A DNA stretch of 64,000 bases. It comes from Pseudokineococcus lusitanus. GTDB taxonomy: Bacteria > Actinomycetota > Actinomycetes > Actinomycetales > Quadrisphaeraceae. Position 1 is the stretch's first letter; the number at the start of each line of letters is the position of its first letter. The notes beneath the pieces were generated by a model. That model did not search any database. It was given only the letters and a program-made list of their open reading frames with translations, and had not been told where the DNA came from. Location of the stretch: NCBI RefSeq assembly GCF_003751265.1, contig NZ_RJKN01000006.1, forward strand, positions 1 through 64,000, written 5' to 3'. The translations under genes were made by a program, and so were the position numbers. This document shows positions 17,706-31,495 of the stretch, in pieces.

Positions 17706-18497
17706 TCAGGTCGCGACGACGACCTCGACCCCCGCGTCCGAGAGCGCCCGCCCCAGCGGGCCGGCGGGCGGGGCGTCGGTGACGAGGACGTCCACCTGCT
17801 CGAGGCGCAGCAGCCGCTGGGGCCCGGCCTCGCCGTGCTTGGAGGCGTCGGCCACGACGACGACGCGGCGCGCGGCGTCGGCGAGCGCCCGGCCCACCTC
17901 TGCCTCGCCGGCGTCGGCGGTCGTGCAGCCGAAGCGGGCGTCGACGCCGTCGACCCCGAGCACGGCGACGTCGAGCACGACCTCGGCGAGCGAGGCCCGG
18001 GCCGCGGGGCCGCTCAGCTCGAAGGACCGCGGCCGCACCGTCCCGCCCGAGAGCTCGACGCGGACGTGCGGGCGCACGGCCAGCTCGTAGGCGACGTCGA
18101 GCGCGTTGGTGACGAGCGTGAAGCCGCGGCGCCGCCCGTCGGCGGGGACGAGGTGGTCGGCGCGGGCGAGGGCGCGGGCGACCTCGCTCGTCGTCGTCCC
18201 GCCGTTGAGGCCGACGACGTCGCCGAGCGCCACGAGCGCGGCGGCGGCACGGCCCACGGCGGCCTTGGCCTCGGGGTGCAGCCCGGCCTTCTCGACGAGG
18301 GGCCGCTCCGGCCCGCCCCCCACGAGCGCCGACGCCCCGCCGTGGGTGCGGACGACGAGCCGCTGCTCGGCGAGGGCGTCGAGGTCGCGCCGCGCCGTCG
18401 CGAGCGACGTGCCCACCTCGGCGCAGACGTCGTTGACGCTGACGTGGCCGCTCGCCATGACGAGGTCGAGCACCCGTGCGAGGCGCTGCTGCCTCAC
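17706..18497 (-). CDS. DeoR-family repressor of the amino-sugar operon
   Basis: The product is 263 residues. The N-terminal winged helix (VRQQRLARVLDLVMASGHVS, then SLATARRDLDALAEQRLVVRTHGGA) is the DeoR signature. The C-terminal DeoRC sugar-phosphate sensor has GLNGGTTTSEVAR, TLVTNALDVA, LSGGTVR and VVVADASKHG. It is the last gene of the nag operon and its GTG overlaps the kinase stop, so it is probably an autoregulated repressor responding to a phosphosugar such as GlcN6P or GlcNAc6P. That ligand is an inference. Confidence 0.9.
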   Translation of the reverse strand: MRQQRLARVLDLVMASGHVSVNDVCAEVGTSLATARRDLDALAEQRLVVRTHGGASALVGGGPERPLVEKAGLHPEAKAAVGRAAAALVALGDVVGLNGGTTTSEVARALARADHLVPADGRRRGFTLVTNALDVAYELAVRPHVRVELSGGTVRPRSFELSGPAARASLAEVVLDVAVLGVDGVDARFGCTTADAGEAEVGRALADAARRVVVVADASKHGEAGPQRLLRLEQVDVLVTDAPPAGPLGRALSDAGVEVVVAT

Positions 18498-19555
18498 GAC
18501 GCCGCCCTCCCGGCGCCGCTCCCGTGTCCGGCGTCGGGGCGCCGCGCGGCCACCGTGCGGTGCAGCCGCTCGACGACGTCGGCCGGGAGCTGCTCGCCCG
18601 CAGGGCCGACCGCGGCCAGCGCCGCGACCGCCGCCCCCACCGCGCCGTCCCGGGCGGCCCGCACGTCCGCGCCCGCGAGCGACTCCTCGAGCAGCGGCGT
18701 CCGTGCGCGGCCGGGGGCCAGGAGCCCGCGGTGCAGCGTGCTGCCGCCGAGCACGAGCGGGGCCCCGGCCGGCGTCCCCGCGCGGGCGGCGGTGACGAGG
18801 CGCGCGAGGTCGTCCTGCGCGACGGCGACCAGCCGGGCCGCCACCGCGTCGTGGGCCACCTCGGGGCGGAAGGCGAGCGGCGCGTGCCGCGCCAGCGCCA
18901 CGGGGCGGTCGGCGTAGCAGACCTCCATGAGCCGCTCGAGGACCGCCGGTCGCCAGACCTCCGAAGGGACCCCGGCGTCCGCGGGGTCGAGGCCGACCGC
19001 GGCGAGCAGCAGCGGCGTGAGCGCCGTCCGCGGCCCGGTGCCCTCGAGCTCGGCGACGACGCCCCGCACGACGGCGTGCCCGACGGCGAAGCCGGAGCCG
19101 CCGTCGCCGAGCAGCCAGCCGGTGCCGCCGATGGCCCGGGCGACCCGTCCACCCTCGACCACCGCGGCCACCGAGCCGGTGCCGGCGACGACGGCGGACC
19201 CCGCGGGCTCGGCGGCGCCGGAGAAGTACATGGCGAGGATGTCGGGCCCGGTGCGGACCTGCGCCGGGTCGCCGACGTAGCCGAGCGAGCGGGCCAGGTC
19301 GGCCGGCGTCATGAGGCTCCGCAGGCCCGCCATGGCGACGAGCACGGAGCCGAGCTCCTCGGGCCCGCGGCCCGCGTCGGCCAGCGCAGCGGCCGACGTC
19401 GCCGTGATCGCGGCCAGCGCGGCGTCCCGCCCGGCCGACGTCGGGTTGCCCGCGGCGCCCGCCGCCCAGCCGAGGCACTCGCCCTCGGCGGTCGTGACGA
19501 CGGCGCGCGTGCTCGTCCCCCCGGCGTCGACGCCGAGGTGCAGCGGCCCGCTCAC
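18494..19555 (-). CDS. nagK: N-acetylglucosamine kinase (BadF/BadG family)
   Basis: The product is 353 residues. It has the ASKHA nucleotide-binding motifs LGVDAGGTSTRAVV (phosphate 1), VAGTGSVAAVVEGG (phosphate 2) and APLVLGGSTLHRGLLAP (adenosine). It belongs to the BadF/BadG/BcrA/BcrD group that includes eukaryotic-type GlcNAc kinases, rather than ROK kinases. It should phosphorylate imported GlcNAc (or MurNAc) to the 6-phosphate for NagA. ABC import leaves the sugar unphosphorylated, so a kinase is needed. The start codon overlaps the nagA stop (GTGA) and its stop overlaps the DeoR start. Confidence 0.85.
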   Translation of the reverse strand: MSGPLHLGVDAGGTSTRAVVTTAEGECLGWAAGAAGNPTSAGRDAALAAITATSAAALADAGRGPEELGSVLVAMAGLRSLMTPADLARSLGYVGDPAQVRTGPDILAMYFSGAAEPAGSAVVAGTGSVAAVVEGGRVARAIGGTGWLLGDGGSGFAVGHAVVRGVVAELEGTGPRTALTPLLLAAVGLDPADAGVPSEVWRPAVLERLMEVCYADRPVALARHAPLAFRPEVAHDAVAARLVAVAQDDLARLVTAARAGTPAGAPLVLGGSTLHRGLLAPGRARTPLLEESLAGADVRAARDGAVGAAVAALAAVGPAGEQLPADVVERLHRTVAARRPDAGHGSGAGRAAS

Positions 19556-20775
19556 CCGGCCCTCGCCACCGGGGCGGCGCCGCGCTCCCGGGCCCGCGCG
19601 GGCGACGTCCGCACGAGCCGCACGGAGAGGTCGTCGTCGAGGAGCACGAGATCCGCGACGGCTCCCGGGACGAGAGCGCCGAGACGCCCGTCCTGCCCGA
19701 GCACGCGGGCGGGCACCGCGGTCGCGGCGTCGACGAGGGCGGGCAGCGGCAGGCCCGCGGCGACGCCGACGGCGAGCGCGCGGTCCGTCGTCAGCGTCGA
19801 GCCGGCCAGGGTGTCGGTGCCCTCGAGCACGGCGCGGCCGTCGGCGACGACGACGTCGAGCGCCCCGAGGGGGTAGCGGCCCCCGGCGCAGTCCGCGGCC
19901 GCCATGGCGTCGGTGACGAGCGCGACGCGGCCGGGCGCGGCGGCCAGCAGCACGGCGGCGACGGCCGGGTGCACGTGCTCGCCGTCGAGGATGAGCTCGA
20001 GGACGACGCGGTCGTCGGCCAGCGCGGCGGCCACCGGCCCGGGGGCGCGGTGGTGCAGGCCGGGCATGGCGTTGAAGGCGTGCGTCAGCAGGCGCGCCCC
20101 GCGGTCGAACGCGGCGGCGGCCTCGTCGTACGTGGCCTCGGTGTGCCCGACGGCGACGACGACGCCCGCCGCGGCGAAGGTCCGGGCGGCCTCGGAGGCC
20201 CCCTCGCGCCGCGGGTCGAGGGTGACCTGGCGCAGCGTGCCGCGGGCGGCGTCGAGCAGCCGCCGGACGGCGGACGGCGTCGGGTCGACGAGCGCGTCGG
20301 CGCTGTGGGCGCCCTTGCGCTCGACGGCGAGGAAGGGCCCCTCGAGGTGGCTGCCGAGGACGCCGGGGTGCTCGTCGACGAGGTCGGCGACCCCGGCGAG
20401 GCGCCCGGCCAGCACGTCGACGTCGTCCGCGACGAAGCTGACGACGGACCGGGTCGTCCCGTGGGCGCGGTGGGCGGCCGCCGAGCCGAGCACGGCCGCG
20501 GGGCCGTCCTCGTGCGCGTGGCCGCCGCCGCCGTGGTGGTGGAGCTCGACGAAGCCCGCGGTGAGCAGGGCGCCCTCGGCGTCGAGCACCTCCGCGCCGG
20601 CGGGGACCGACGGGGCGTCGCCGGTCCCCCGCGCGACCACCTCGCCGTCGCGGGCCAGCACCCACGTGCCGTCGTGGACGCCGGCCGCGTCGACGAGCCG
20701 GGCGCCCGTCACGAGGAGGTCGCCGACGGGCGGCCCGACCGGCCCCCTGCCGTCCCCCGGCGCGGGGGCGCTCAC
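19552..20775 (-). CDS. nagA: N-acetylglucosamine-6-phosphate deacetylase
   Basis: The product is 407 residues, slightly longer than E. coli NagA (382). Amidohydrolase motifs are FVELHHHGGGGHAHEDG, LGSHLEGPFLA (metal-binding Glu), VAVGHTEATYDEA (His), LLTHAFNAMPGLHHR (His) and ALVTDAMAA (catalytic Asp). It removes the acetyl group from GlcNAc6P to give GlcN6P, the substrate of the NagB encoded just upstream. GTGA overlaps join it to nagB and nagK. The FVELHHHG segment is typical of actinobacterial NagA. Confidence 0.95.
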   Translation of the reverse strand: MSAPAPGDGRGPVGPPVGDLLVTGARLVDAAGVHDGTWVLARDGEVVARGTGDAPSVPAGAEVLDAEGALLTAGFVELHHHGGGGHAHEDGPAAVLGSAAAHRAHGTTRSVVSFVADDVDVLAGRLAGVADLVDEHPGVLGSHLEGPFLAVERKGAHSADALVDPTPSAVRRLLDAARGTLRQVTLDPRREGASEAARTFAAAGVVVAVGHTEATYDEAAAAFDRGARLLTHAFNAMPGLHHRAPGPVAAALADDRVVLELILDGEHVHPAVAAVLLAAAPGRVALVTDAMAAADCAGGRYPLGALDVVVADGRAVLEGTDTLAGSTLTTDRALAVGVAAGLPLPALVDAATAVPARVLGQDGRLGALVPGAVADLVLLDDDLSVRLVRTSPARARERGAAPVARAG

Positions 20776-21566
20776 GCGGCGGGCCCCGCGCCCACGGGCA
20801 CCCGCGTGAGCCGGGAGGCGGCCGCGGGGTCGAGGAGCACGAGGACGTCGGCGAAGGTCCGCACCGCCGAGGCGGGGCACGCCGGCGAGACGGGCCCCTC
20901 GAGCGCGGCCCGCACCGCCTCGGCCTTGTGCTCGCCGCGGGCGATGAGCACGTGCCGGCGCGCGGTCGCGATGGTCGCGACCCCCTGCGTCACGGCGCGC
21001 CGCGGCACGTCCTCGGGGCGCGCGAAGAAGCGCGCGTTGTCGGCGACGGTCGTCGCGGCGAGCTCGACGACGCGGGTCCGCGAGGACAGCGGCGACCCGG
21101 GCTCGTTGAAGCCGATGTGGCCCGTCGCGCCGATGCCGAGCAGCTGGACGTCGGCGCCCCCGCGGGCGGTCAGCGCCGCCTCGTACGCCGCGCAGGCCGC
21201 CGCCAGCCCGGCCTCCGTCGTCGCCGTCCCGTCGGGGACGTGGACGCGCGCCGGGTCGAGCCCGAGCGGCGCGCGCACCTCCTCCTCGACGACGGCGGCG
21301 TAGCTGCGGGGGTCGCCCGCCGGCAGGCCGACGTACTCGTCGAGCGCGAAGACCTCGACCGCGTCCCAGCCCGGCAGCCGCCGGGCGGCGAGGTCGGCGT
21401 ACACCTGCAGCGGCGAGGAGCCGGTGGCGACGCCGAAGGTGGCGAGCCGGCCCGCGGCCAGCTCCTCGGCGACGACGTCGGCGGCCCGGCGGCCGATGCC
21501 CTCGGCCCCGTCGGCCTCGTCGACGACCTCCACCCGCAGCGTCGTCCCGCCCCGGCCCGGCGTCAC
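20772..21566 (-). CDS. nagB: Glucosamine-6-phosphate deaminase
   Basis: The product is 264 residues, typical for NagB (about 260). The motifs are LATFGVATGSSPLQVYADL, VEVFALDEYVGL (catalytic Asp), LGIGATGHIGFNEPGSP and TQGVATIATARRHVLIARG. It converts GlcN6P to fructose-6-phosphate and ammonia, feeding glycolysis. The GTG at 21566 overlaps the permease stop. With nagK and nagA it completes GlcNAc catabolism in the order import, phosphorylation, deacetylation, deamination. Confidence 0.95.
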   Translation of the reverse strand: MTPGRGGTTLRVEVVDEADGAEGIGRRAADVVAEELAAGRLATFGVATGSSPLQVYADLAARRLPGWDAVEVFALDEYVGLPAGDPRSYAAVVEEEVRAPLGLDPARVHVPDGTATTEAGLAAACAAYEAALTARGGADVQLLGIGATGHIGFNEPGSPLSSRTRVVELAATTVADNARFFARPEDVPRRAVTQGVATIATARRHVLIARGEHKAEAVRAALEGPVSPACPASAVRTFADVLVLLDPAAASRLTRVPVGAGPAA

Positions 21567-22486
21567 TTGACGCTCCCGGCCGACACCGAGCCCTGCAGGC
21601 GCCGCTGGAAGACGAGGTAGACGACGAGGACGGGGACGATCGTCGTCACGGCGCCGGCGAAGAGGGCGCCGAAGTCGACGGCGTACCCGGCCTGGGAGGC
21701 GAAGGACGCCATCCCCTGCGTGAGGACGTAGCTGTCCTGGTCGGAGTTGAGGACCACGGGCAGGAGGAACTGGTTCCACAGGCCGACGAAGTTGAGGATC
21801 GCCACGGCCGCCATGCCCGGGCGGGCCATCGGCAGCATGACCTGGAAGAAGGTCCGCCACTCGCCCGCGCCGTCGATCGACGCGGCCTCGGCCACCTCGT
21901 GCGGCAGGTCCTCGAAGAAGCTGACGAGGAAGAAGACGGTGAAGGGGTACGCGTAGGCGGTGTACGCGGCCACGAGGCCCGGCAGCGTGTTGAGCAGCCC
22001 CGCCTGCTGGAGGATGAAGAACAGCGGCACGACGGCGAGGAAGACCGGGAAGGTCAGCCCCGCGACGATCAGCGTGCGCACCGCGCCGCGCCCCGGGAAG
22101 GGGAAGCGGGCCAGCACGTACGCCGACATCGAGCCCAGCACCATCGTGAGGACGAGCGCGCACGTGACGACGACGACGGAGTTGGCGAAGTAGCGGCCGA
22201 TGCCCGCGAGCGTCCACGCGTTGACGTAGTTCTCGAGGTGCAGGGAGGTCGGCAGCGAGAACGGCGACGCGAAGATCTCCTGCGTCGTCTTGAAGGACGA
22301 CATGAGCGTCCACAGCAGCGGCGCGATGACGAGGACGGTCCACAGGACGAGGACGCCCTGCGACGCCGCCCCGACGGCGCGGTCGGCGCCGGAGCCCTTC
22401 GGGCCGCCGGTCGGCTGACGGCGACGGGGGCCGGAGGGGCCGCCCTCGACGGCGGGCGGGGCCCCGGTCTGGAGATGAGTGCTCAT
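21563..22486 (-). CDS. Sugar ABC permease, MalG/NgcG type
   Basis: The product is 307 residues with six predicted membrane segments. The cytoplasmic EAA loop reads EVAEAASIDGAGEWRTFFQVMLP, which contacts the ATPase. The N-terminal 40 residues are a Pro/Gly/Arg-rich cytoplasmic lead. It is the second permease of the NgcEFG-like importer; the ATG at 22486 overlaps the stop of the first permease. No ATPase gene is present, as in Streptomyces systems energised by the shared ATPase MsiK. Confidence 0.92.
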   Translation of the reverse strand: MSTHLQTGAPPAVEGGPSGPRRRQPTGGPKGSGADRAVGAASQGVLVLWTVLVIAPLLWTLMSSFKTTQEIFASPFSLPTSLHLENYVNAWTLAGIGRYFANSVVVVTCALVLTMVLGSMSAYVLARFPFPGRGAVRTLIVAGLTFPVFLAVVPLFFILQQAGLLNTLPGLVAAYTAYAYPFTVFFLVSFFEDLPHEVAEAASIDGAGEWRTFFQVMLPMARPGMAAVAILNFVGLWNQFLLPVVLNSDQDSYVLTQGMASFASQAGYAVDFGALFAGAVTTIVPVLVVYLVFQRRLQGSVSAGSVK

Positions 22487-23502
22487 GCCCGCGCACCCCC
22501 TCGGACGCCGAGCAGCCGGGCGACGCCGAACACCAGCCCGACGAAGACCAGCGTGACGACCGCGAGGACGACGCCCATGGCGCAGGCGATGCCGAACTGG
22601 CCCTGCGCGAAGGCCGTCGTGAAGACCTGCTGCGTGACGACGAGCGTCGAGCTCTCGGGGCCACCGGTGGGGTTGAGCGCCTGCATGTAGACGAAGGCGT
22701 CCAGGGCGAGGATCCCCATGTAGACGTACGCGGTGCGGACGCTGCCCGCGATGCCCGGCAGCGCGATGGACAGCGCGGTGCGGACGCGGCCGGCGCCGTC
22801 GAGCCGGGCGGCCTCGAAGAGCTCGGGGTCGATGTTCTGGATCGCCGCGACGAACAGCACCATGTAGAAGCCGACGAAGGCCCAGACGATGACCGCGATC
22901 GTCGCCGCCATCGCCGTGCTGGCCTGGCCGAGCCACGCAAAGTCGGTGAAGCCGTCGAGCCCGACGCCCACGAGCAGCCCGTTGAGCAGGCCGTTCGAGG
23001 GGTTGTAGACCTGGCTCCAGATGATGCCGATGACGATCGCGGGCACGACGTACGGGAAGAAGGAGACGACCCGGTAGAAGGCCGTGCCCCGCAGGCCGCG
23101 GACGGCGCCCGCCGTCGACCCGCCGAAGGTGAGGACGCACGCCAGCGCGAAGCTGAGGACGAGCGTCACCGCCGGGACGACGACGAGCAGCGTCAGGCTG
23201 TTGCCGAGCGAGTTGAGGAACTGCGCGTCCCCCGCGAGCCGGACGTAGTTGTCGAGCCCGACGAAGGGCTGCTCGGGGCTGAAGCCCGTCCACGCGGTGA
23301 CGGAGTAGTAGGTCGCCTGCGTGAAGGGGTACAGCACCATGACGACGTAGAAGGCGAACGGCAGCCCCAGGAAGACGACCATGAGGCTGACGCGGTCGAA
23401 GGACAGGCGCCGCCCCCGGGCGCCGGGCCGTGACGGCGCGGGCGACGGGGTCGACGACGACGCGCCGCGCCGCCGTCGACCGGCCGCCACGGCCCCCGCC
23501 AT
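22483..23502 (-). CDS. Sugar ABC permease, MalF/NgcF type
   Basis: The product is 339 residues: a basic cytoplasmic N-terminus, then six membrane segments and the EAA loop PELFEAARLDGAGRVRTALSIALPG. It pairs with the permease at 21563. Its ATG shares one base with the stop codon of the binding-protein gene (TGATG), a reinitiation arrangement. Confidence 0.92.
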   Translation of the reverse strand: MAGAVAAGRRRRGASSSTPSPAPSRPGARGRRLSFDRVSLMVVFLGLPFAFYVVMVLYPFTQATYYSVTAWTGFSPEQPFVGLDNYVRLAGDAQFLNSLGNSLTLLVVVPAVTLVLSFALACVLTFGGSTAGAVRGLRGTAFYRVVSFFPYVVPAIVIGIIWSQVYNPSNGLLNGLLVGVGLDGFTDFAWLGQASTAMAATIAVIVWAFVGFYMVLFVAAIQNIDPELFEAARLDGAGRVRTALSIALPGIAGSVRTAYVYMGILALDAFVYMQALNPTGGPESSTLVVTQQVFTTAFAQGQFGIACAMGVVLAVVTLVFVGLVFGVARLLGVRGGARA

Positions 23503-24929
23503 CAGCTGACCTCGACCTTCTCGACGGAGTCGTCCTCGCGGATGCGGTCGAAGAGCGCCTGCATGCCCTCGGCCAGCGCCGCGGCGTCGGAGTCGCCCGA
23601 CAGGAAGCTGTTCCACAGGACGTTGACGTCGGCCGTCATGCCGTAGGTGGCGACGAAGTTGTAGTTGAAGGTGTCCGTGCCGGCGGCCTCGAGCATCGAG
23701 ACCTGGGCGGCGAGCGCCGTCGAGCCGAAGGCGTCCTCGGGGATGGTGCCCGCGACGATCGTCGAGGCGAGCTTGGTGCGCGCGAACTCCGTCGCCGTCT
23801 CCGGCGAGAGCATGACGCGGAGCATCTCCTTGCCGCCCGCGGCGTTGGCGCCCTGGCTCGGGACGGCGAACGGCTCGTTCGGCGTGTTGTTGATCGCCGC
23901 GTAGGGCAGCGCGGCGTCGGCCGTGACGGTCGGCGCGGGGGCGCCCGTCATCTGGAAGTCGTCCGCCGTGGCGTCGGCCATCTCGTTCTCGATCCACGAG
24001 CCCGAGGGGTAGAGCAGCGCCTCCTGCGCCTGGCTCCACTGCGCCTGCGCCTGCGTGAACTGGGTGCCGGCGCCACCGGGACGCATGTACCCGTTGGCGA
24101 CGACCTGCTCCATCGCCGCGAGGACGCCGGTGATGGCCTCGCCGCTCCACGCGTCGGCCTGGAGGTTGGCCATCTGCAGGCGGACCTCGTCGCCGCCCTC
24201 CTTGATGGCCGAGTCGAGCGCCATCGTGAGGAAGTACGACGCCGCCTCGCGGCCCCACGTGAAGAGGTACTTGCCCTGCTCCTGCGCGGCCGCGCCGAGC
24301 GCGAGCGCGTCGTCCCACGTCTGCGGCGCGGTCCAGCCGTTGGCGTCGAAGAGCGTCTGGGAGTACCAGAGCGCGTACACGGTGAGGACGTAGTTGATCG
24401 CGACGAGCCTGCCGTCGAACTGGCCGACGCCGAGGACGTTCGGGTAGAGCGTGTCCGCGATGGGCGTGCCCTCGGTGTTGACGGCGTCGATGACCTCCTG
24501 GAGGTCCTCGAGCTGCGCGGCGATCGTCGAGATCCCGATGGCGTTGGCGCCGGAGTTGTCGAGCAGGTCGGGCGGGTTGCCGCCGACGAAGCGCGGCTGC
24601 ATCTGCTGCGCGATCTGGGTGGAGCCGGTGACGTCGACCGTCACGCCGTCCTGGTTCTCCTGCAGCAGGTTGGCCGCGAAGGACGCGTAGTCGGTGCCGT
24701 ACCCGCCGTCGAAGATGATCGCCTCGACGGTCGAGTCGGCCGCGACGCCGAAGGGGTTGGTGTCGGTGACGGCGCCCGTCGCGCCGCCGCCCCCGCCGCC
24801 CTCGCTCGGGCCGCTGCCGCCGGCGGCGCACGAGGCGAGCGACAGGCCGAAGGGCGTCACGACGGCGCCCGCGGTGAGGGCCTTGAGGAAGTTGCGGCGC
24901 TGGACGGTCCTGCGGGTGGTTCCGGTCAC
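23502..24929 (-). CDS. NgcE-like amino-sugar binding lipoprotein
   Basis: The product is 475 residues. The leader RRNFLKALTAGAVVTPFG is twin-arginine type and ends in lipobox LASC, so it is a Tat-exported lipoprotein. The solute-binding family 1 fold is shown by DGRLVAINYVLTVYALWYSQ, LFTWGREAASYFL and LLYPSGSWIENEM. Length and Tat leader agree with NgcE, the GlcNAc/chitobiose-binding protein of Streptomyces; I infer GlcNAc or GlcNAc-containing disaccharide uptake. The GTG at 24929 has AGAGGA upstream. A gap of 102 bases separates it from the SIS gene. Confidence 0.85.
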   Translation of the reverse strand: MTGTTRRTVQRRNFLKALTAGAVVTPFGLSLASCAAGGSGPSEGGGGGGATGAVTDTNPFGVAADSTVEAIIFDGGYGTDYASFAANLLQENQDGVTVDVTGSTQIAQQMQPRFVGGNPPDLLDNSGANAIGISTIAAQLEDLQEVIDAVNTEGTPIADTLYPNVLGVGQFDGRLVAINYVLTVYALWYSQTLFDANGWTAPQTWDDALALGAAAQEQGKYLFTWGREAASYFLTMALDSAIKEGGDEVRLQMANLQADAWSGEAITGVLAAMEQVVANGYMRPGGAGTQFTQAQAQWSQAQEALLYPSGSWIENEMADATADDFQMTGAPAPTVTADAALPYAAINNTPNEPFAVPSQGANAAGGKEMLRVMLSPETATEFARTKLASTIVAGTIPEDAFGSTALAAQVSMLEAAGTDTFNYNFVATYGMTADVNVLWNSFLSGDSDAAALAEGMQALFDRIREDDSVEKVEVS

Positions 24930-25031
24930 GGGGTGTCCTCTCGGGGCGGTGACGCCGGCCGGCGGCGGTGCCGGGCGGTCTGGCCGGTCTGGCGGGCGGC
25001 GGGAGCCGCGGGTCGTGCGGTGCGGCGGCGC

Positions 25032-25847
25032 TCAGGCGCCGCGGCGGATCCGGCCCTCGTAGCGGGCCTCGAGGACGCGGTTGTGCTCGTCGCCGCCGGG
25101 GATGTTGGCGGAGAGGTACAGGGGCGCCTCCTGGCCGCGCTCGGCGAGCAGGGCGGTGACGCCGAGGGTGATGAGCTGCGCGACGTACGCGCTCGTGAGC
25201 GAGGAGACGGCGCCGACGTCCGGCCCGCCCTCGACCGACGTCGTGGCGTCGCCGTAGGGGGCGAGGTTGTCGACGACGACGTCCGCGACCTCCGAGAGGC
25301 GCTTGCCGCTCGGGTGCTTGGGCTGGACGCGGGCGGTGTGCTCGAGGCTCGTCACCGCGATGACCGGGTGGCCGTGCTCCTTGGCGAGCAGGGCCACGCC
25401 GACGATCGAGCCGTTGACGCCGCTGTTGGAGGCGATGACGAAGACGTCGCCGTCGCGCCGCGGCACGGTGGCGAAGACGTCGTCGGCGATGGCCGGGTCC
25501 CGCTCGAGCGGCGGTGTGCCGTAGAGCTCCTCGATGGCGTGGTCGCCGAGCAGCACCGCGTCGCGCAGGGCGACGCGGTTGGTGGGGATGAGGCCGCCGG
25601 CCCGGCCGGCGACCTCCATGGCGAAGGCCTCGGAGTGGCCGGTGCCGAAGGCGTGGACGACACCGCCGGAGGCGATGCAGTCGGCGACGAGACGGACGGC
25701 CTCGTCGAGGCCGCCGTCCGAGGCCAGTCGCGAGATTTTCTGCAGCCGGCTGACGACCTCGTGCTCGAAGGCCGGCACGAAGCCGTGGGGGACGGCGGTG
25801 GTGCCGGCGGCGGGGGGCCCGTCGGTGGTCTCGGCGGTCGGCGGCAC
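25032..25847 (-). CDS. SIS-domain sugar isomerase-like protein (UPF0309)
   Basis: The product is 271 residues. The SIS phosphosugar-binding motifs are GGVVHAFGTGHSEAFAMEV, VFVIASNSGVNGSIV and HPVIAVTSLEHTARV. It belongs to the UPF0309 group (Streptomyces SCO4393-like) and not to MurQ, as the MurQ-type GTSGRL motif is absent. Members sit in GlcNAc operons; an activity on GlcNAc6P has been reported for the Streptomyces protein, a recollection I cannot check. It is the first gene of the nag operon. The GTG at 25847 has GAGAGGA upstream. Lipid-type or lactyl-ether substrates cannot be excluded. Confidence 0.75.
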   Translation of the reverse strand: MPPTAETTDGPPAAGTTAVPHGFVPAFEHEVVSRLQKISRLASDGGLDEAVRLVADCIASGGVVHAFGTGHSEAFAMEVAGRAGGLIPTNRVALRDAVLLGDHAIEELYGTPPLERDPAIADDVFATVPRRDGDVFVIASNSGVNGSIVGVALLAKEHGHPVIAVTSLEHTARVQPKHPSGKRLSEVADVVVDNLAPYGDATTSVEGGPDVGAVSSLTSAYVAQLITLGVTALLAERGQEAPLYLSANIPGGDEHNRVLEARYEGRIRRGA

Positions 25848-26166: not shown

Positions 26167-26751
26167 TCAGTGCGCGCTGCAGCAGGCGCGGTGCACCGGG
26201 GACTCGAAGGGCACCCAGCGGCCGTCGCGGGCGGGCTGGACGTCGAGCACCAGCTGCCCGCCGGCGAGGCGGGGACGCACGTGGCCGCGGGTGTCGACGA
26301 CGGCGTCGTCCGGGACGACGAGGCCGCCGAGACCGACGACCACGTCGAGGGCGCTGCGGCGCAGCAGCTCTCCGACGTCGAGGACGCCGACGAGGTGCTC
26401 GGCGCCCGGCAGGACGACGACGCGGTCGGCGTCGCCCCCGGCCGCCCGGGCGGCGACGGCGTCGTCCGGGCCCGTCGCCCCCGCCGCCGCGAGGAGGTCG
26501 GCCACGAGCGCGTCCGGCAGCGAGGTGCCGGACGGCGCCAGGACCACCAGCGCCAGGTGCCGCGGCGGCCCGACGACCCAGGTCGTGGCCACGAGCGTGC
26601 CGGCGGGGACCCCGGGCACGGCGGCGAGCCGGGCGGCGGTCGCGTCGGCGTCCGCCGTCGTCCGCAGGTGCGGCGTCGAGAGGCCGAGCACGCGGCCCGG
26701 GCCCGCCCCCGCGGGGACGGGCCCGGGCCGGGCCGTGAGGTCGGTGCTCAC
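26167..26751 (-). CDS. Unknown 194-residue protein coupled to the PHP protein
   Basis: I do not recognise this protein. It is soluble, with an Ala/Val-rich alternating pattern (GTLVATTWVVGPPRHLALVVLAP, VVVLPGAEHLVGVLDVGELL) and no signal peptide. It ends in ESPVHRACCSAH, a His, Cys-Cys and His cluster that could bind a metal. The GTG overlaps the PHP gene stop (GTGA), so both are made together. Given the His-rich N-terminus of its partner and the cobalt/nickel transporter next door, a role in metal handling is a reasonable inference but unproven. Confidence 0.6.
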   Translation of the reverse strand: MSTDLTARPGPVPAGAGPGRVLGLSTPHLRTTADADATAARLAAVPGVPAGTLVATTWVVGPPRHLALVVLAPSGTSLPDALVADLLAAAGATGPDDAVAARAAGGDADRVVVLPGAEHLVGVLDVGELLRRSALDVVVGLGGLVVPDDAVVDTRGHVRPRLAGGQLVLDVQPARDGRWVPFESPVHRACCSAH

Positions 26752-28541
26752 CCGCGGCCGCGGGCCTCGGGCACGACGAACACCGGGTTCGTGTACATCC
26801 ACAGGTCCTCCCACGGGTCGGCGTCGCCGACGACGTCGAGCGCCGGGCCCTCGGCGTCCACGGCCGCGCCGTAGAGGCCGACCTGCGAGCGCTTGCCGTC
26901 GGTGCCGCGCAGCCGCACGTAGAAGGGGCCCTCCACGGCGTCGACCACGTACCGGAACGTCGCCGTCCCGCCGCGCGCCCGGACGCCCGTCGTGTCGAAG
27001 GACTCGACGACGCGCGTGCCCGGCGTCGTGAAGGTGTCGCGGTCGGCGACGCCGCCCGTCACCTGTCCCACGATGACGTCGAGCCGCGCGAGCTCCGGGC
27101 GGAAGGTCGCGTAGTTCGCCCGCGAGGCGAGCGTCACGGTGACCTCCACCTCGACGTCGTCGCCCTGCCGCACGCGCAGCGAGCCGCCGAGCGTCGACTC
27201 CCGCGCCGGCGTCCGGACGGAGCGCACGCGCACGTCGACGGCGTCGACGAGCCCGCCGTGGTCGACCCAGACGCGCCCGGCGCGCAGGGCCGCCATGAGC
27301 GGGCGGTACCCGCCCCGCGTGACGCCGACGTGGGTGCGGCTGTAGTAGCCGGGCCAGAAGTCGCCGCGGTCGGTCTGGACGCCGCCGCCGTACACGGGGT
27401 CGCTGTAGAGGCCGTCGACGTCGAAGACGCGCCCGTCGGGCCCGACGGCGGAGCGGTCGTTGCCGACCGGGTTGACCGACCAGTCGCCGTAGATGGAGTG
27501 GCTGTCGGAGTTCGCGGTGACCCACCAGGGCAGGCCCTCGGCGAGGAGGCTGTCCCAGAGGCCGCCGACCGTCGACGTCATCCAGTCGAAGCCGCCCCAG
27601 GTGCGGTAGCTCTCGAGCGGGTAGCCGGGGAAGCTATTCGCCCCCGGGGCGTTGCCGTAGTACCCGCGGGCGTCGCCCGGGCCGAGGGCGTCGGTGCTGA
27701 TGCCGGCCGCCTGGTGGCCGGGTGCGCCCTCCATGCCGATGGCGATGCGGCCCGGGGCGTCGCGCCAGCCCCGGATCTCGTGCGGGGAGTCGACGCCGTT
27801 GCGGGCGGGGTGGTTGGCGAGCATGAGCGCGTCGGGGGTCCGCCCCGACGAGACCTGCTCGGAGAGGAAGGTCAGGCCGGCGACGGCGAGCGCCTCGTTG
27901 GCCGGTGAGCTGCTGCTCGCCCCGCGCACGCTGCCGTCGTAGCCCTGCTCGAACTGCTGGAGGACGGCCACCTCGTTCGGCCCCGGCGCGACGAAGACCG
28001 TGCCGTGCTCCGCGGCGGGGATGTTCCACTCGAGCCCCTGGAACACGAGCATGTCCGGGTTCTCGCGGCGCGCCTCGCGGACGTCCGGGTTGGTCTTCTC
28101 GACGCCGATGCGGGCGTGCGTGGCCCCGCCGTGGTCGGTGATGACCATCCAGTCGAGCCCGTAGCGGCCGGCCGCGTGCACCTGGTCGCTGACGCGGTAC
28201 ATGGCGTCGGGGCTGTACTGCGTGTGGATGTGGTGGTCGCCCGCGAGCCACGAGTACTGCTGGCCGCGGCGGTCGCCGCCGGGCCGCGTCACGGCGGCGG
28301 CCGGCGACGCGGCCGCCCCGGCGAGGCCGAGGCCCGCGCCGAGCAGGCCGGCGCCGCGCAGGACGCCGCGCCGGGACAGGGCGGCCGGGCTGAGGCCCTC
28401 GTCGGGGACGGAGAGGTCGACGGCCTCGCCGAGGACGCCGTCGGTGCCGACCTCCGTCGCGCCGTGGGTGTGCGGGTGCGCGTGGTCGTGGGGGTGCTCG
28501 TGGTCGTGCGGGTGGGGGTGCGCGTGGTGGTGACCGGACAC
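26748..28541 (-). CDS. Exported PHP-domain phosphoesterase-like protein, His-rich N-terminus
   Basis: The product is 597 residues. Residues 4-26 are a His-rich tract (HHHAHPHPHDHEHPHDHAHP) that should bind metal ions. A Tat-like motif SRRGVLRGAGLLGAG follows at about 56, unusually far from the N-terminus. The PHP domain starts at about 98 with GDHHIHTQYSPD; further metal ligands are in VITDHGGATHA, ANHPARNGVDS and TANSDSHSIYGD. The C-terminal 180 residues are beta-rich (YATFRPELARLDVIVGQ). PHP enzymes use two or three metals for phosphoester or related hydrolysis. The GTG at 28541 has GGGAG upstream. The substrate is unknown. Confidence 0.8.
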   Translation of the reverse strand: MSGHHHAHPHPHDHEHPHDHAHPHTHGATEVGTDGVLGEAVDLSVPDEGLSPAALSRRGVLRGAGLLGAGLGLAGAAASPAAAVTRPGGDRRGQQYSWLAGDHHIHTQYSPDAMYRVSDQVHAAGRYGLDWMVITDHGGATHARIGVEKTNPDVREARRENPDMLVFQGLEWNIPAAEHGTVFVAPGPNEVAVLQQFEQGYDGSVRGASSSSPANEALAVAGLTFLSEQVSSGRTPDALMLANHPARNGVDSPHEIRGWRDAPGRIAIGMEGAPGHQAAGISTDALGPGDARGYYGNAPGANSFPGYPLESYRTWGGFDWMTSTVGGLWDSLLAEGLPWWVTANSDSHSIYGDWSVNPVGNDRSAVGPDGRVFDVDGLYSDPVYGGGVQTDRGDFWPGYYSRTHVGVTRGGYRPLMAALRAGRVWVDHGGLVDAVDVRVRSVRTPARESTLGGSLRVRQGDDVEVEVTVTLASRANYATFRPELARLDVIVGQVTGGVADRDTFTTPGTRVVESFDTTGVRARGGTATFRYVVDAVEGPFYVRLRGTDGKRSQVGLYGAAVDAEGPALDVVGDADPWEDLWMYTNPVFVVPEARGRG

Positions 28542-28705
28542 GGGGGTGCTCCCTGCTGCTGCCTGGTGCGCGAGGGCCGGCCCGGCGACGTCGGGCCGGT
28601 GGTGCCGCCACCCCGGCCGGCGGCGTCGGGGGCGTCGTGCGCGGGTGGCCCGGCCAGCCTGCTCCGGGCCAGGTGGCCGGAGCGTGCCCTGCGGGCGTCG
28701 GGCGC

Positions 28706-28744
28706 GTGAACATCGGCGCGGGCGGGAACTTCCGCGATGTTCAC
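28706..28744. promoter_or_regulatory. Spaced 10-bp inverted repeat between PHP and cbiM
   Basis: GTGAACATCG (28706-28715) and CGATGTTCAC (28735-28744) are perfect reverse complements separated by 19 bases, in the 250-base divergent region. Lower GC than its surroundings makes it stand out. It is placed 48 bases before cbiM and 165 before the PHP gene, fitting a metal- or cobalamin-responsive regulator of both. I see no cobalamin riboswitch B12-box. Confidence 0.5.
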
Positions 28745-28791
28745 CTCCCCGTCGCTCTCCCCGACGCCGCCCGCGGGCGCATGATCCGGAG

Positions 28792-29817
28792 GTGCACGTC
28801 CCCGACGGCTTCCTCGACCTCAGCACCTCCGTCGCGACCGCCGGCGTCAGCGCCGCGGCCGTGGCGACGGCGCTCCGCCGCTCCCGCACCGAGCTCGACG
28901 TCGTCGGGCCCGCCGTGCCGGGGCTCGTCTCCGCGTTCGTCTTCGCCGTGCAGATGGTCAACTTCCCCGTCGGCGCCGGCACGAGCGGCCACCTCATGGG
29001 CGGGGCGCTGGCGGCCGCGCTCGTCGGCCCCGCGACGGCGATGGTGTGCCTCACGGTCGTCCTCGTCGTCCAAGCCCTGCTCTTCGCCGACGGCGGGCTG
29101 ACGGCGCTGGGCACCAACGTCCTGCTCATCGCGGTCGTCACGGTGCTCGTGGGGCACGTCGTCACCCGTGGCGCCCTGCGGGTGCTGCCCCGGCGGCCGG
29201 GCTCCGTGGCCGTCGCCGCCGCGCTCGGCGGGCTCGTGTCCGTGCCCGCCGCGGCGCTCGTCTTCGTCGGCCTCTACGCCGTCGGGGGCGCCGTCCCCGT
29301 CGACCTCGGGACGCTCGCCACGGCGATGCTCGGCTGGCACGTGCTGATCGGGGTGGGCGAGGCCCTCATCACCGGCGCCGTCGTGTCCGCCGTCGTCGCG
29401 AGCCGGCCGGACCTCGTCCGCTCGCTGCGGGGCACCCGGCGCGACCTGGTCGTCGTGGACGCCGACGGACGCCGGACGACGGTCCCGGCGACCGTCGACG
29501 AGCCCGCCGCCCCGGCCCGCGCCGGTATGCGGCGCCCCCTCGCCGTGGCGCTGGCCGCGTGCGCCGTCGTCGCCGGCGGGGTGAGCCTGCTCGCGAGCGG
29601 GCACCCGGACGGCCTCGAGCACGTCGCCGGGGTCGTCGGCTTCGGCGACGCCGCCCGCGACTCCGCCGTCGCCGCCTCCCCGCTCGCCGACTACGCCGTC
29701 GCCGGCGTCGGCTCCCCCGTCGCGGTGACGGTCGCCGGGCTCGTCGGGGTGGCCGTCACCGCGCTGCTCGCCGCCGGGGCCGTGCGGGCCGTGGGCCGCC
29801 GCCGCGTGGGGGCCTGA
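28792..29817 (+). CDS. cbiM: CbiM-type cobalt/nickel ECF substrate component with fused PDGLE domain
   Basis: The product is 341 residues. It starts VHVPDGFLDLSTSV, the classic CbiM/NikM N-terminus whose His2 coordinates the metal, so the GTG at 28792 (GGAGG 4 bases upstream) is certain. It has about six membrane segments in CbiM with SGHLMGGALAAAL. After residue 245 the PDGLE domain is present (GHPDGLEHVAG and a last membrane helix), a CbiN/NikN-like element normally separate. It is the substrate-binding membrane subunit of an ECF-type Co2+/Ni2+ importer; which metal cannot be told. Confidence 0.92.
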   Translation: MHVPDGFLDLSTSVATAGVSAAAVATALRRSRTELDVVGPAVPGLVSAFVFAVQMVNFPVGAGTSGHLMGGALAAALVGPATAMVCLTVVLVVQALLFADGGLTALGTNVLLIAVVTVLVGHVVTRGALRVLPRRPGSVAVAAALGGLVSVPAAALVFVGLYAVGGAVPVDLGTLATAMLGWHVLIGVGEALITGAVVSAVVASRPDLVRSLRGTRRDLVVVDADGRRTTVPATVDEPAAPARAGMRRPLAVALAACAVVAGGVSLLASGHPDGLEHVAGVVGFGDAARDSAVAASPLADYAVAGVGSPVAVTVAGLVGVAVTALLAAGAVRAVGRRRVGA

Positions 29818-29822
29818 CCGGC

Positions 29823-30719
29823 GTGCGGGTCACCGGCGCGCCGCGCGCCCCCGGCCGCCCCGCCCGCCGGGCCCGGGTGGCGGGCGCCGCCTCGGCCGGC
29901 CGGTCCTCGGGGACGCCGCCGCTCGCGCCGGGCGCTCCCGTGCTCCTGCCCGCGTCCCGCGGTCCCCGCCGCGACGGGCTGCACGTCCTCGTCGCCTCCC
30001 CGGTCCACCGGCTCCCGGCGCACACCAAGGTCGTCGCGCTGACGGCGCTCGCGGCCGGGGTCGTCGCGGTCCCGGCCGGCGCCTGGGCCGCGCTCGCCGT
30101 CTGCGCGCTGCTCGTCCTCGGCGTCGTCGCGGCGTCCCGGCTGCCGGTGGGGCTCGTCGCGCGCCGGATGGTCGTCGAGATGCCCGTCGTCGTCTTCTGC
30201 CTGCTGCTGCCGCTCGTCGCCACGGGTCCCCGCGTCGACGTGCTGGGGCTCGAGCTCGCGCGCGACGGGCTCGTCGGCGGGGCGACGCTCCTCGTCAAGG
30301 CGACGCTCGGCGTCCTCGCGGCGGTCGTCCTCGCCGGGACGACGTCGGCGCGCGACCTCCTCGCCGGGCTCGACCGGCTGCGGGTGCCCCGCCCGATGGT
30401 CGCGGTGCTGACCTTCGCCGTCCGCTACGCCGCCGTCCTCGCCGAGGAGGTGCGCCGCCTGCAGGTGGCGCGGGCCGTGCGCGGCGGCGAGGACGGGCGC
30501 CTGCGGCAGCTCGCCGCCGTCGCCGCCGGGGCCGGCGCCCTCTTCGTCCGCGGCTACGAGCGCGGGGAGCGCGTGCAGCGCTCGATGGTCGTCCGCGGCT
30601 GGACGGGCACGACACCGGCACTCGCCTCGGCGCCCGCGACGGCGCGGCAGTGGGCGCTCGCCCTCGTCGTCCCCGCGGCGGCCGTGGCGGTCGCCGTCGT
30701 CGCGCGGGCCGCCGCGTGA
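29823..30719 (+). CDS. cbiQ: CbiQ-type ECF transmembrane component
   Basis: The product is 298 residues. The N-terminal 50 residues are basic and Pro-rich, probably cytoplasmic; about five membrane segments follow. The EcfT coupling helices are seen as RLRVPRPMVAVLTFAVRYAAVLAEEVRRLQVARAVRGG and RGYERGERVQRSMVVRGW, matching the Ala-Arg-Gly family motifs that contact the ATPase. It begins six bases after cbiM and overlaps cbiO. A shorter start is possible, as the N-terminal extension is unusual. Confidence 0.9.
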   Translation: MRVTGAPRAPGRPARRARVAGAASAGRSSGTPPLAPGAPVLLPASRGPRRDGLHVLVASPVHRLPAHTKVVALTALAAGVVAVPAGAWAALAVCALLVLGVVAASRLPVGLVARRMVVEMPVVVFCLLLPLVATGPRVDVLGLELARDGLVGGATLLVKATLGVLAAVVLAGTTSARDLLAGLDRLRVPRPMVAVLTFAVRYAAVLAEEVRRLQVARAVRGGEDGRLRQLAAVAAGAGALFVRGYERGERVQRSMVVRGWTGTTPALASAPATARQWALALVVPAAAVAVAVVARAAA

Positions 30720-31495
30720 GCGAGCCGGTCCTGCAGGTCGAGCAGCTCGCCTTCGCCTACCCCGACGGCCGGCAGGCGCTCTTCGGCGTCGACCTCGAGG
30801 TCCGGGCGGGCGAGCGCGTGGCGCTGCTCGGCCGCAACGGCGCCGGCAAGACGACGCTGGCGCTGCACCTCGTCGGTGTCGCCGGCGCACCGGCGGGCGG
30901 CACCGGGGCCGGTCGGGTCGTCGTCGGCGGCGTGGCGCTGACCCGCGCGACCCTCGCCGAGGTGCGCCGTCGCGTCGGCATCGTCTTCCAGGACACCGAC
31001 GACCAGCTCTTCATGCCGACCGTCCGCGACGACGTCGCCTTCGGCCCCGCCAACCTCGGCCTCTCGGGCGACGCGCTCCGGGCGCGGGTGGACCGGACGC
31101 TCGACGTCGTCGGGCTCCGCGACCTCGCGGACCGTGCGCCGCACCACCTCTCGCTCGGCCAGCGCCGCCGCGCCGCCCTGGCGACGACGCTGGCCATGGA
31201 GCCCGACGTGCTGGTGCTCGACGAGCCGACCGGCGACCTCGATCCGGCGGGCCGCCGCGAGCTCGCCGACGTCCTCGCGGCGCTGCCCGTCACGCTGCTC
31301 GTCATCACGCACGACCTGCCCTACGCGCTGCAGCTCTGCGAGCGGTCGGTGCTCATGGACGCGGGCCGCGTCGTCGCCGACGGCCCGACCCGCGAGCTCC
31401 TCGCCGACGACGCCCTCCTGCGCGCCCACGGCCTCGAGCTGCCCTACGGGTTCGACCCGCTCGCGGTGCCGGGGCCGGAGGCGCCGCGGCGCTGA
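30716..31495 (+). CDS. cbiO: Cobalt/nickel ECF ATPase CbiO
   Basis: The product is 259 residues. ABC ATPase motifs: Walker A LLGRNGAGKTT, Q-loop VFQDTDDQLFMPTV (the DDQLF extension is typical for ECF ATPases), signature HHLSLGQRRRAAL, Walker B VLVLDEPTGDLDP and switch His in VITHDLPYAL. It energises the CbiM-CbiQ transporter. The GTG overlaps the cbiQ stop. This is the only ABC ATPase in the window and belongs to the metal system, not to the sugar importers. Confidence 0.95.
   Translation: MSEPVLQVEQLAFAYPDGRQALFGVDLEVRAGERVALLGRNGAGKTTLALHLVGVAGAPAGGTGAGRVVVGGVALTRATLAEVRRRVGIVFQDTDDQLFMPTVRDDVAFGPANLGLSGDALRARVDRTLDVVGLRDLADRAPHHLSLGQRRRAALATTLAMEPDVLVLDEPTGDLDPAGRRELADVLAALPVTLLVITHDLPYALQLCERSVLMDAGRVVADGPTRELLADDALLRAHGLELPYGFDPLAVPGPEAPRR

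Follow-up and report, generated by a model that had tools for sequence, protein, structure and literature searches.

The stretch of DNA analysed here (the window) comprises the first 64,000 nucleotides of contig NZ_RJKN01000006.1 from the actinobacterium Pseudokineococcus lusitanus (assembly GCF_003751265.1). Its reverse strand carries two overlapping genes, one encoding a PHP-domain protein of 597 residues with a twin-arginine translocation (Tat) type signal (26748–28541) and the other a partner protein of 194 residues (26167–26751) that ends in a CCxxH tail. Sequence comparison indicates that the two genes form a conserved operon, in which metal-binding-type residues of both proteins are kept together across many actinobacterial genera, and many soil actinobacteria carry the tightly linked pair. 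We tentatively read the pair as a phosphate-starvation module, in which a Tat-exported PHP phosphoesterase may be loaded with metal before export with the help of its His-rich n-region and the CCxxH partner. The superfamily of the enzyme is known, whereas searches of Pfam, NCBIfam and PHROGs gave no name for the family of the partner. With the pair, the phosphate response of actinobacteria gains one candidate family of enzymes and one protein family that has no name yet.

Conservation of the PHP-partner pair

Conservation was assessed in two sets, namely the top 80 among 468 relatives confirmed in a scan with the PHP alignment, which are close relatives and include 49 Streptomyces loci, and a class sample of 394 genomes. 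A profile of the partner matches 75 of the 80 loci, in 73 of which the partner gene is adjacent to the PHP gene; in the other two it lies 3.9 and 6.7 kb away. The 4-nt GTGA overlap between the PHP stop and the partner start (26748–26751, reverse strand, in the window) is identical in 71 of the 73 adjacent pairs and suggests translational coupling. Every other gene family near the PHP gene is limited to 20 of these loci at most. The pair ranges over Streptomyces, Streptosporangiaceae, Micromonosporaceae, Amycolatopsis, Nocardioides and Pseudokineococcus; within the class sample, even a genome of 1.3 Mb (G317) carries it. Five of the 80 loci have no partner match: L053 and L061 lie at contig ends with short pieces of a partner, and the remaining three (L074, L094, L108) are from Jiangella. 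The sequence of L074 stops 42 nt past the PHP gene, so that the state of its partner is not judgeable; L094 and L108 have sequence to spare and no partner nearby. In one further genome (G044; L036:8237–9873), the PHP gene is split over two frames by a mutation or a sequencing error, and the partner frame is open.

The class sample, in which 41 of the 394 genomes have a strong PHP relative (>600 bits), shows how the partner and the His cluster are distributed. Among 50 distinct PHP copies, counted by eye after 12 duplicate loci had been dropped, 24 have the partner, and all of these are His-clustered, the lowest with 4 His (L165). The copies without the partner comprise 18 with at most 4 His and 8 His-rich copies of the Jiangella type. 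No partner was found in the Jiangella-type genomes by a partner-profile scan in which the first seven candidates per genome, and in a further genome scan the first three, were scored. The Jiangella-type loci in question (L170, L176–L178, L180–L182 and L189) have a His-rich n-region, and several of the proteins start with MCHT. A further clade of PHP proteins with a Tat signal (L191–L201) has neither His cluster nor partner and constitutes a natural control set.

Seen from the partner, the profile matches in 38 of the 394 genomes, 25 times adjacent to a PHP gene, 10 times as a tailless protein without PHP and 3 times weakly (G146, G287 and G374, with E values from 2e-5 to 1e-3 and PHP unmatched in all three). 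The ten tailless cases encode a relative of the partner without the CCxxH tail and a PHP match in none of the ten genomes; one of the proteins ends in a lone Cys, and two of the genomes are less than 90% complete. All ten belong to one genus (f36/g74) and may therefore go back to a single event. By eye, at least three of their loci (L147, L150, L151, L153, L154 and L220–L224) have a LytR-CpsA-Psr-like neighbour.

In a tree of the PHP proteins, copies with both partner and His cluster are basal and also make up several clades, which are separated by clades poor in His and without the partner, and the tree looks as if the partner and the His cluster had been lost jointly. For the labels of this tree a threshold of 6 His was used, L036 and L076 (partner 3.9 kb away) were set by hand as partner-present, and L201, which has no motif, was dropped.

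The PHP protein and its His-rich Tat signal

The PHP protein, read from a GTG start at 28541, is assigned to the PHP phosphoesterase superfamily by profile and predicted fold. Its match to PF02811 scores 35.8 bits against a Pfam cut-off of 26.4 (E 1.3e-8), and its AlphaFold2 (AF2) model has a mean predicted local distance difference test score (pLDDT) of 74, with values below 50 in the n-region. The best structural match of the model is 3e38 (Z 17.3, root-mean-square deviation (rmsd) 3.6, 246 aligned residues), followed by 2anu (Z 16.9). Metal ligands of PHP proteins come as the motif series HxH, H, E, H and DxH. This set is present in the PHP protein, and in the catalytic region (27252–28250, reverse strand) nine residues (His, Asp or Glu) in keeping with the PHP motifs, namely H104, H106, D112, H137, E171, H179, H244, D346 and H348, are invariant in 35 of 35 alignment rows; residues of this kind are metal ligands in the superfamily, which is their putative role here.

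The n-region (residues 1–27; 28461–28541, reverse strand) holds 13 His, all within residues 4–26, and is followed about 28 residues on by the twin-arginine type sequence SRRGVLRGAGLLGAG, with the arginines at positions 57 and 58. The Tat-type signal spans about residues 51–90 (28272–28391, reverse strand; limits set by eye) and consists of SRRGVLRGAG, a stretch judged by eye to be hydrophobic and an Ala-rich end, making the PHP protein a putative Tat substrate. Twin arginines are present in 80 of 80 PHP relatives, and all 80 have 6–15 His within the 25 residues before them. Among 1065 control proteins from the same loci, 5 reach 6 His in their first 110 residues. The His were recounted without choosing a start, automatic starts having fallen downstream of the cluster in 10 of the 80 loci. 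Both the His cluster and the CC tail of the partner are far beyond chance.

The partner protein

The partner ends in RACCSAH and has no signal peptide apparent by eye. Across 46 alignment rows the Cys residues of the terminal CCSAH (26170–26184, reverse strand), C190 and C191, are invariant, and H194 is nearly so. CC followed by one or two residues and a His near the C-terminus occurs in 67 of 70 family members; of the three off this pattern, L083 has a CCxxxH variant, L110 lies at a contig end, and L050 has another tail, which a frame shift may have caused. The 24 partners adjoining PHP in the class sample include 19 with CC, 4 (f47) that end in CGGH and 1 (L158, genome G183) that ends early without the tail. 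In G183 the partner frame stops short of the tail in L149 as well as in L158. Much of the family also has a Cys-Thr-His in the first domain, and the partner in the window is without it.

No family in Pfam, NCBIfam or PHROGs matched the partner, a sequence search of the PDB gave nothing better than E 0.24, and a contig search with the partner alone as query gave no match. The AF2 model of the partner (pLDDT 88) has a ferredoxin-like first half, a mixed second half and a tail of low confidence. Foldseek returned no match to the model at E 0.001. The N-terminal half gives a best Z of 7.1 (rmsd 2.8, 77 aligned) against ferredoxin-like folds, tied among unrelated proteins. MerP and other HMA-type domains are among the matches at Z 5.9–6.9, but SecDF, SPOR and S6 stand alongside them, so the likeness is no evidence for metal binding.

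The upstream element and phosphate control

In the 200 bp upstream of the gene, GTTCAY was found for 69 of the 80 PHP genes, compared with 62 of 756 control genes (genes of the same loci with at least 100 nt of free upstream sequence) and 4.5% in shuffled sequence, the family-wide counts being inflated by the relatedness of the many Streptomyces loci. When the loci are grouped by genus, 10 of 14 groups have the motif in one locus or more, with two of three loci in Pseudokineococcus; the groups without it are Hamadaea, Planotetraspora and Micromonospora (a single locus each) and Jiangella (none of three). When 76 loci were anchored on GTTC[AG][CT], further units were most frequent at -22 and -33 for the Streptomyces group, the remaining loci having their peak at +11; an example of such spaced units upstream of PHP is GTTCATGTCCG-GTTCAGCCGCT. 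The PHO box bound by PhoP is built of 11-nt units in which GTTCACC is most conserved, as described in excerpts of PMC6283541 and PMC7244524. The element upstream of the PHP genes has the form of such a box with 11-bp periodicity, suggesting that PhoP may bind it. Ten low-His PHP paralogs, from the eleven loci L191–L201, have no GTTCAY upstream, and one of them has GTTCGC.

In the window, a GTTCACG heptamer facing PHP (28705–28711, reverse strand) lies 170 nt upstream of the gene and is a possible PhoP half-box, weak when taken by itself but backed by the element seen across the family; a GTTCACC heptamer of uncertain significance (28739–28745, forward strand) faces the divergent cbiM gene. The two overlap the first and second arms, respectively, of an inverted repeat described below, the arms of which thus present GTTCAC to both genes. 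Their two-unit PHO scores are unremarkable (9/14 and 10/14). Elsewhere in the genome of the window, a perfect two-unit box, GTTCACCCGGCGTTCACC, is found about 106–124 nt upstream of a pstS-like gene. This genome also has three consecutive PHO-type units (L240:2958–2986; G000:C7:134157–134185) close to a gene that by eye is CYTH/CHAD-like and hence related to polyphosphate.

PHP has its intergenic region in common, at 20 of the 80 loci, with a divergent gene for a protein of the endonuclease/exonuclease/phosphatase family, which in one member has a lectin domain according to Pfam and by eye has a secretion-type N-terminus.

The divergent importer and the inverted repeat

The genes at 28792–31495 (forward strand) are assigned by sequence to a cobalt/nickel-type energy-coupling factor (ECF) importer, with CbiM and a CbiN-like PDGLE part (28792–29817), CbiQ (29823–30719) and a CbiO-type ATPase (30716–31495), all starts chosen by eye. 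Above the cut-offs are PF01891, PF13190, PF02361 and TIGR02454, as well as PF00005 for the ATPase; the cobalt-type NCBIfam models for the ATPase and those for CbiM scored below theirs. Between PHP and cbiM lies the perfect 10-bp inverted repeat GTGAACATCG-N19-CGATGTTCAC (28706–28744; arms 28706–28715 and 28735–28744). The layout given in a preliminary description of this DNA, that is, a His-rich Tat/PHP gene, an overlapping gene for a protein ending in ACCSAH, a divergent cbiM-cbiQ-cbiO and the inverted repeat, is borne out.

The linkage to the importer across relatives, which had been set beforehand, alongside a metal response, as the test of a connection, is not conserved. CbiM or CbiQ stands near the pair in 2 of the 80 loci, both from Pseudokineococcus, in loci reaching up to 10 kb on each side and in some cases less. 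In two congeners (G001, G002), tblastn places cbiO on the opposite side of the pair, with its end at a distance of about 3 and 4.5 kb, respectively, from the gene for the partner, and in a third (G003) the pair is present and tblastn gave no CbiM match in the genome. Across the class sample CbiM is found in 170 of 394 genomes, and by a hand count in 32 of the 41 PHP genomes and 138 of the 353 others, an excess that lineage and genome size could explain. Judged by eye among the CbiM places listed, a distance of about 148 kb or more separates PHP from the nearest CbiM of its contig, except in the genome of the window, and 6 of 25 pair-bearing genomes of the class sample have no CbiM match. A general link to the importer was rejected on the congener searches, the 80 loci and the class sample, and we judge the importer to be a neighbour outside the module. 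From the layout, a metal-linked module served by the importer had been proposed; the metal-linked part is upheld to the extent that the operon is conserved and has metal-binding-type residues, and the service by the importer falls with the 2 of 80 loci and the congener without CbiM. This corrects a functional link to cobalt/nickel uptake that is likely to be false.

The inverted repeat by itself means little, as such repeats are common in GC-rich DNA: the 64 kb of the window (about 77% GC) hold 85 overlapping perfect 10-bp inverted repeats with spacers of up to 30. The core TGAACAT...ATGTTCA has a single occurrence in the genome, and a search of 40 loci matched it in just two, both of which include this part of the window. 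It is not found upstream of cbiM or PHP in the congeners, and its reading as a conserved operator was rejected. An Rfam scan of the window at gathering thresholds found no RNA element. Upstream of cbiM in two congeners (L031:2950–2964, L032:208–222) there is a perfect 7-1-7 palindrome, TGCGACG-T-CGTCGCA, which is absent from the window and has a shape that we take to resemble Fur-family operators.

Proposed function and alternative explanations

The Tat system translocates folded proteins. A PHP metal-dependent phosphoesterase using it would fold and acquire its metal in the cytosol and leave as a folded enzyme. Cytosolic folding before Tat export is reported to fix the choice of metal for MncA (PMC8867077, in excerpt). 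The long His n-region, cytosolic during folding, may gather metal or hand it over, and the His cluster would be removed along with the signal peptide. The partner, presumably translated from the PHP mRNA through coupling to the preceding gene, would be a dedicated cytosolic helper, a two-part protein with a flexible CCxxH tail that may donate metal to the PHP protein or check the metal in it before export. Zn2+ or Fe2+ seems a more likely metal than Ni or Co. In the wider family, transcription would probably be activated by PhoP under phosphate limitation, and the pair could then act as a phosphate-scavenging module. Metal binding and the identity of the metal, the hand-over and its direction, activity, export, substrate and PhoP control are all properties that we infer. 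With a His cluster before the twin arginines and a coupled, tailed partner kept alongside the enzyme, assisted metal loading before export is the simplest reading, and we consider that it may well be correct, while holding it tentatively. It is possible, though on the unlikely side, that the poly-His n-region is a built-in metallochaperone or export checkpoint, filled by the CCxxH donor and removed after export, such that only correctly metalated enzyme exits.

Several observations weigh against assisted metal loading under phosphate control. Eight copies of the Jiangella type are rich in His but have no partner next to them, although L177 among these lies at a contig end and is not judgeable, and the His counts of copies with and without partner overlap at 4 (L165 with, L174 without). 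The tree holds just two to four independent pairs differing in partner state and gives no significance for coupled gain or loss. Five of the 24 class-sample partners depart from the CC tail, four (f47) having a single Cys and L158 being tailless, and the ferredoxin-like N-terminal half of the partner, at Z about 7, matches common folds and is not a distinctive feature of the model. As for phosphate control, L202, which is His-rich and has a partner, is without GTTCAY, as are three Jiangella loci (L074, L094, L108); the two-unit score of the PHP gene in the window, no higher than 9/14, is the commonest value among controls. Repeats of the GTTCA type could presumably also serve another OmpR-family regulator, e.g., AfsR.

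The partner could instead be a structural or regulatory subunit or a co-exported passenger, with the CCxxH tail forming a disulfide or a structural metal site and delivering nothing. The partner has no signal peptide apparent by eye and is folded by prediction, and strict coupling and co-loss fit a subunit too; yet a subunit leaves the His cluster, located in the removable signal part, unexplained, and Jiangella enzymes persist without a partner, so that we regard this explanation as unlikely. Alternatively, the His cluster and the CC tail may serve metal sensing or sequestration, e.g., a stop of export at scarcity or excess of Zn, Ni or Cu, with the PHP activity secondary. Metal-gated control of an exported cuproenzyme does exist in CutF-CutO (excerpts of PMC9973294). 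However, CutF is encoded upstream and has a Sec signal and a stem-loop, whereas the partner here is encoded downstream, has no apparent signal and is associated with a PHO-like element, and the active-site set of PHP is invariant in the 35 rows; sensing as the main role appears improbable. That the pair is a cobalt/nickel module supplied by the divergent CbiMQO would suit the adjacency in the window, the distances of about 3 and 4.5 kb in two congeners and the excess of CbiM among PHP genomes. It is hard to reconcile with linkage in 2 of 80 loci, with the pair-bearing genomes that lack a CbiM match, G003 among them, and with an inverted repeat that is not conserved; its linkage part is largely refuted by the comparisons of sequence, and we consider it very improbable as a whole.

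Relation to known systems

The PHP protein of the window has the fold and the invariant His/Glu/Asp set in common with PHP phosphoesterases (PF02811; 3e38, 2anu, 2yb1), to which it adds a Tat signal with a His n-region, a C-terminal beta-rich part and a dedicated partner gene. The likeness to CehA/McbA metallohydrolases (NF038032) is partial and confined to the PHP region, at 40.9 bits against a curated cut-off of 80. The nickel-binding chaperone SlyD has a His-rich metal-binding region. SlyD also binds Tat signal peptides, according to excerpts of PMC11198818. A metal-binding region tied to Tat signals is thus common to both, but in SlyD it is located in the chaperone and here in the signal peptide of the substrate itself. 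In CutFOG, the operon likewise joins an exported Tat multicopper oxidase with small metal-binding proteins, but the metal is copper, the helpers have signal sequences, and CutF lies upstream and acts by translational stalling (PMC9973294, in excerpt). The phosphatases PhoD, DUF839 and GlpQ are activated members of the actinobacterial Pho regulon, as stated in excerpts of PMC8269224 and PMC7866108. They are phosphoesterases too, but have other folds. They are not known to have a His-rich n-region or a CCxxH partner. In the titles and abstract openings of the open-licence literature in PubMed Central (PMC), nothing was found on the pair or on a His-rich Tat n-region combined with a CCxxH partner.

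How exported metalloenzymes obtain the right metal has been called unclear (excerpt of PMC10550928). The module is a natural test of metalation: the Tat enzyme has a removable His cluster, close paralogs are without it, and the tail of the coupled partner is well delimited. There are also lineages missing one piece, namely Jiangella, without the partner, and a genus in which the partner is tailless and the enzyme absent. If the proposal is true, a Tat signal with a metal-gathering domain of its own would represent a route to the metalation of exported enzymes that has not been recognised before and that is widespread among actinobacteria.

Neighbouring genes

Just upstream of PHP in two congeners (L031, L032; L032:10019–12150), genes resembling those of an ArsR regulator, an Acr3 transporter and an ArsC phosphatase were noted by eye. 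In the window, the reverse-strand genes beside the pair (17706–25847) read by eye as an operon for a sugar ATP-binding cassette (ABC) transporter and an SIS-domain-like protein.

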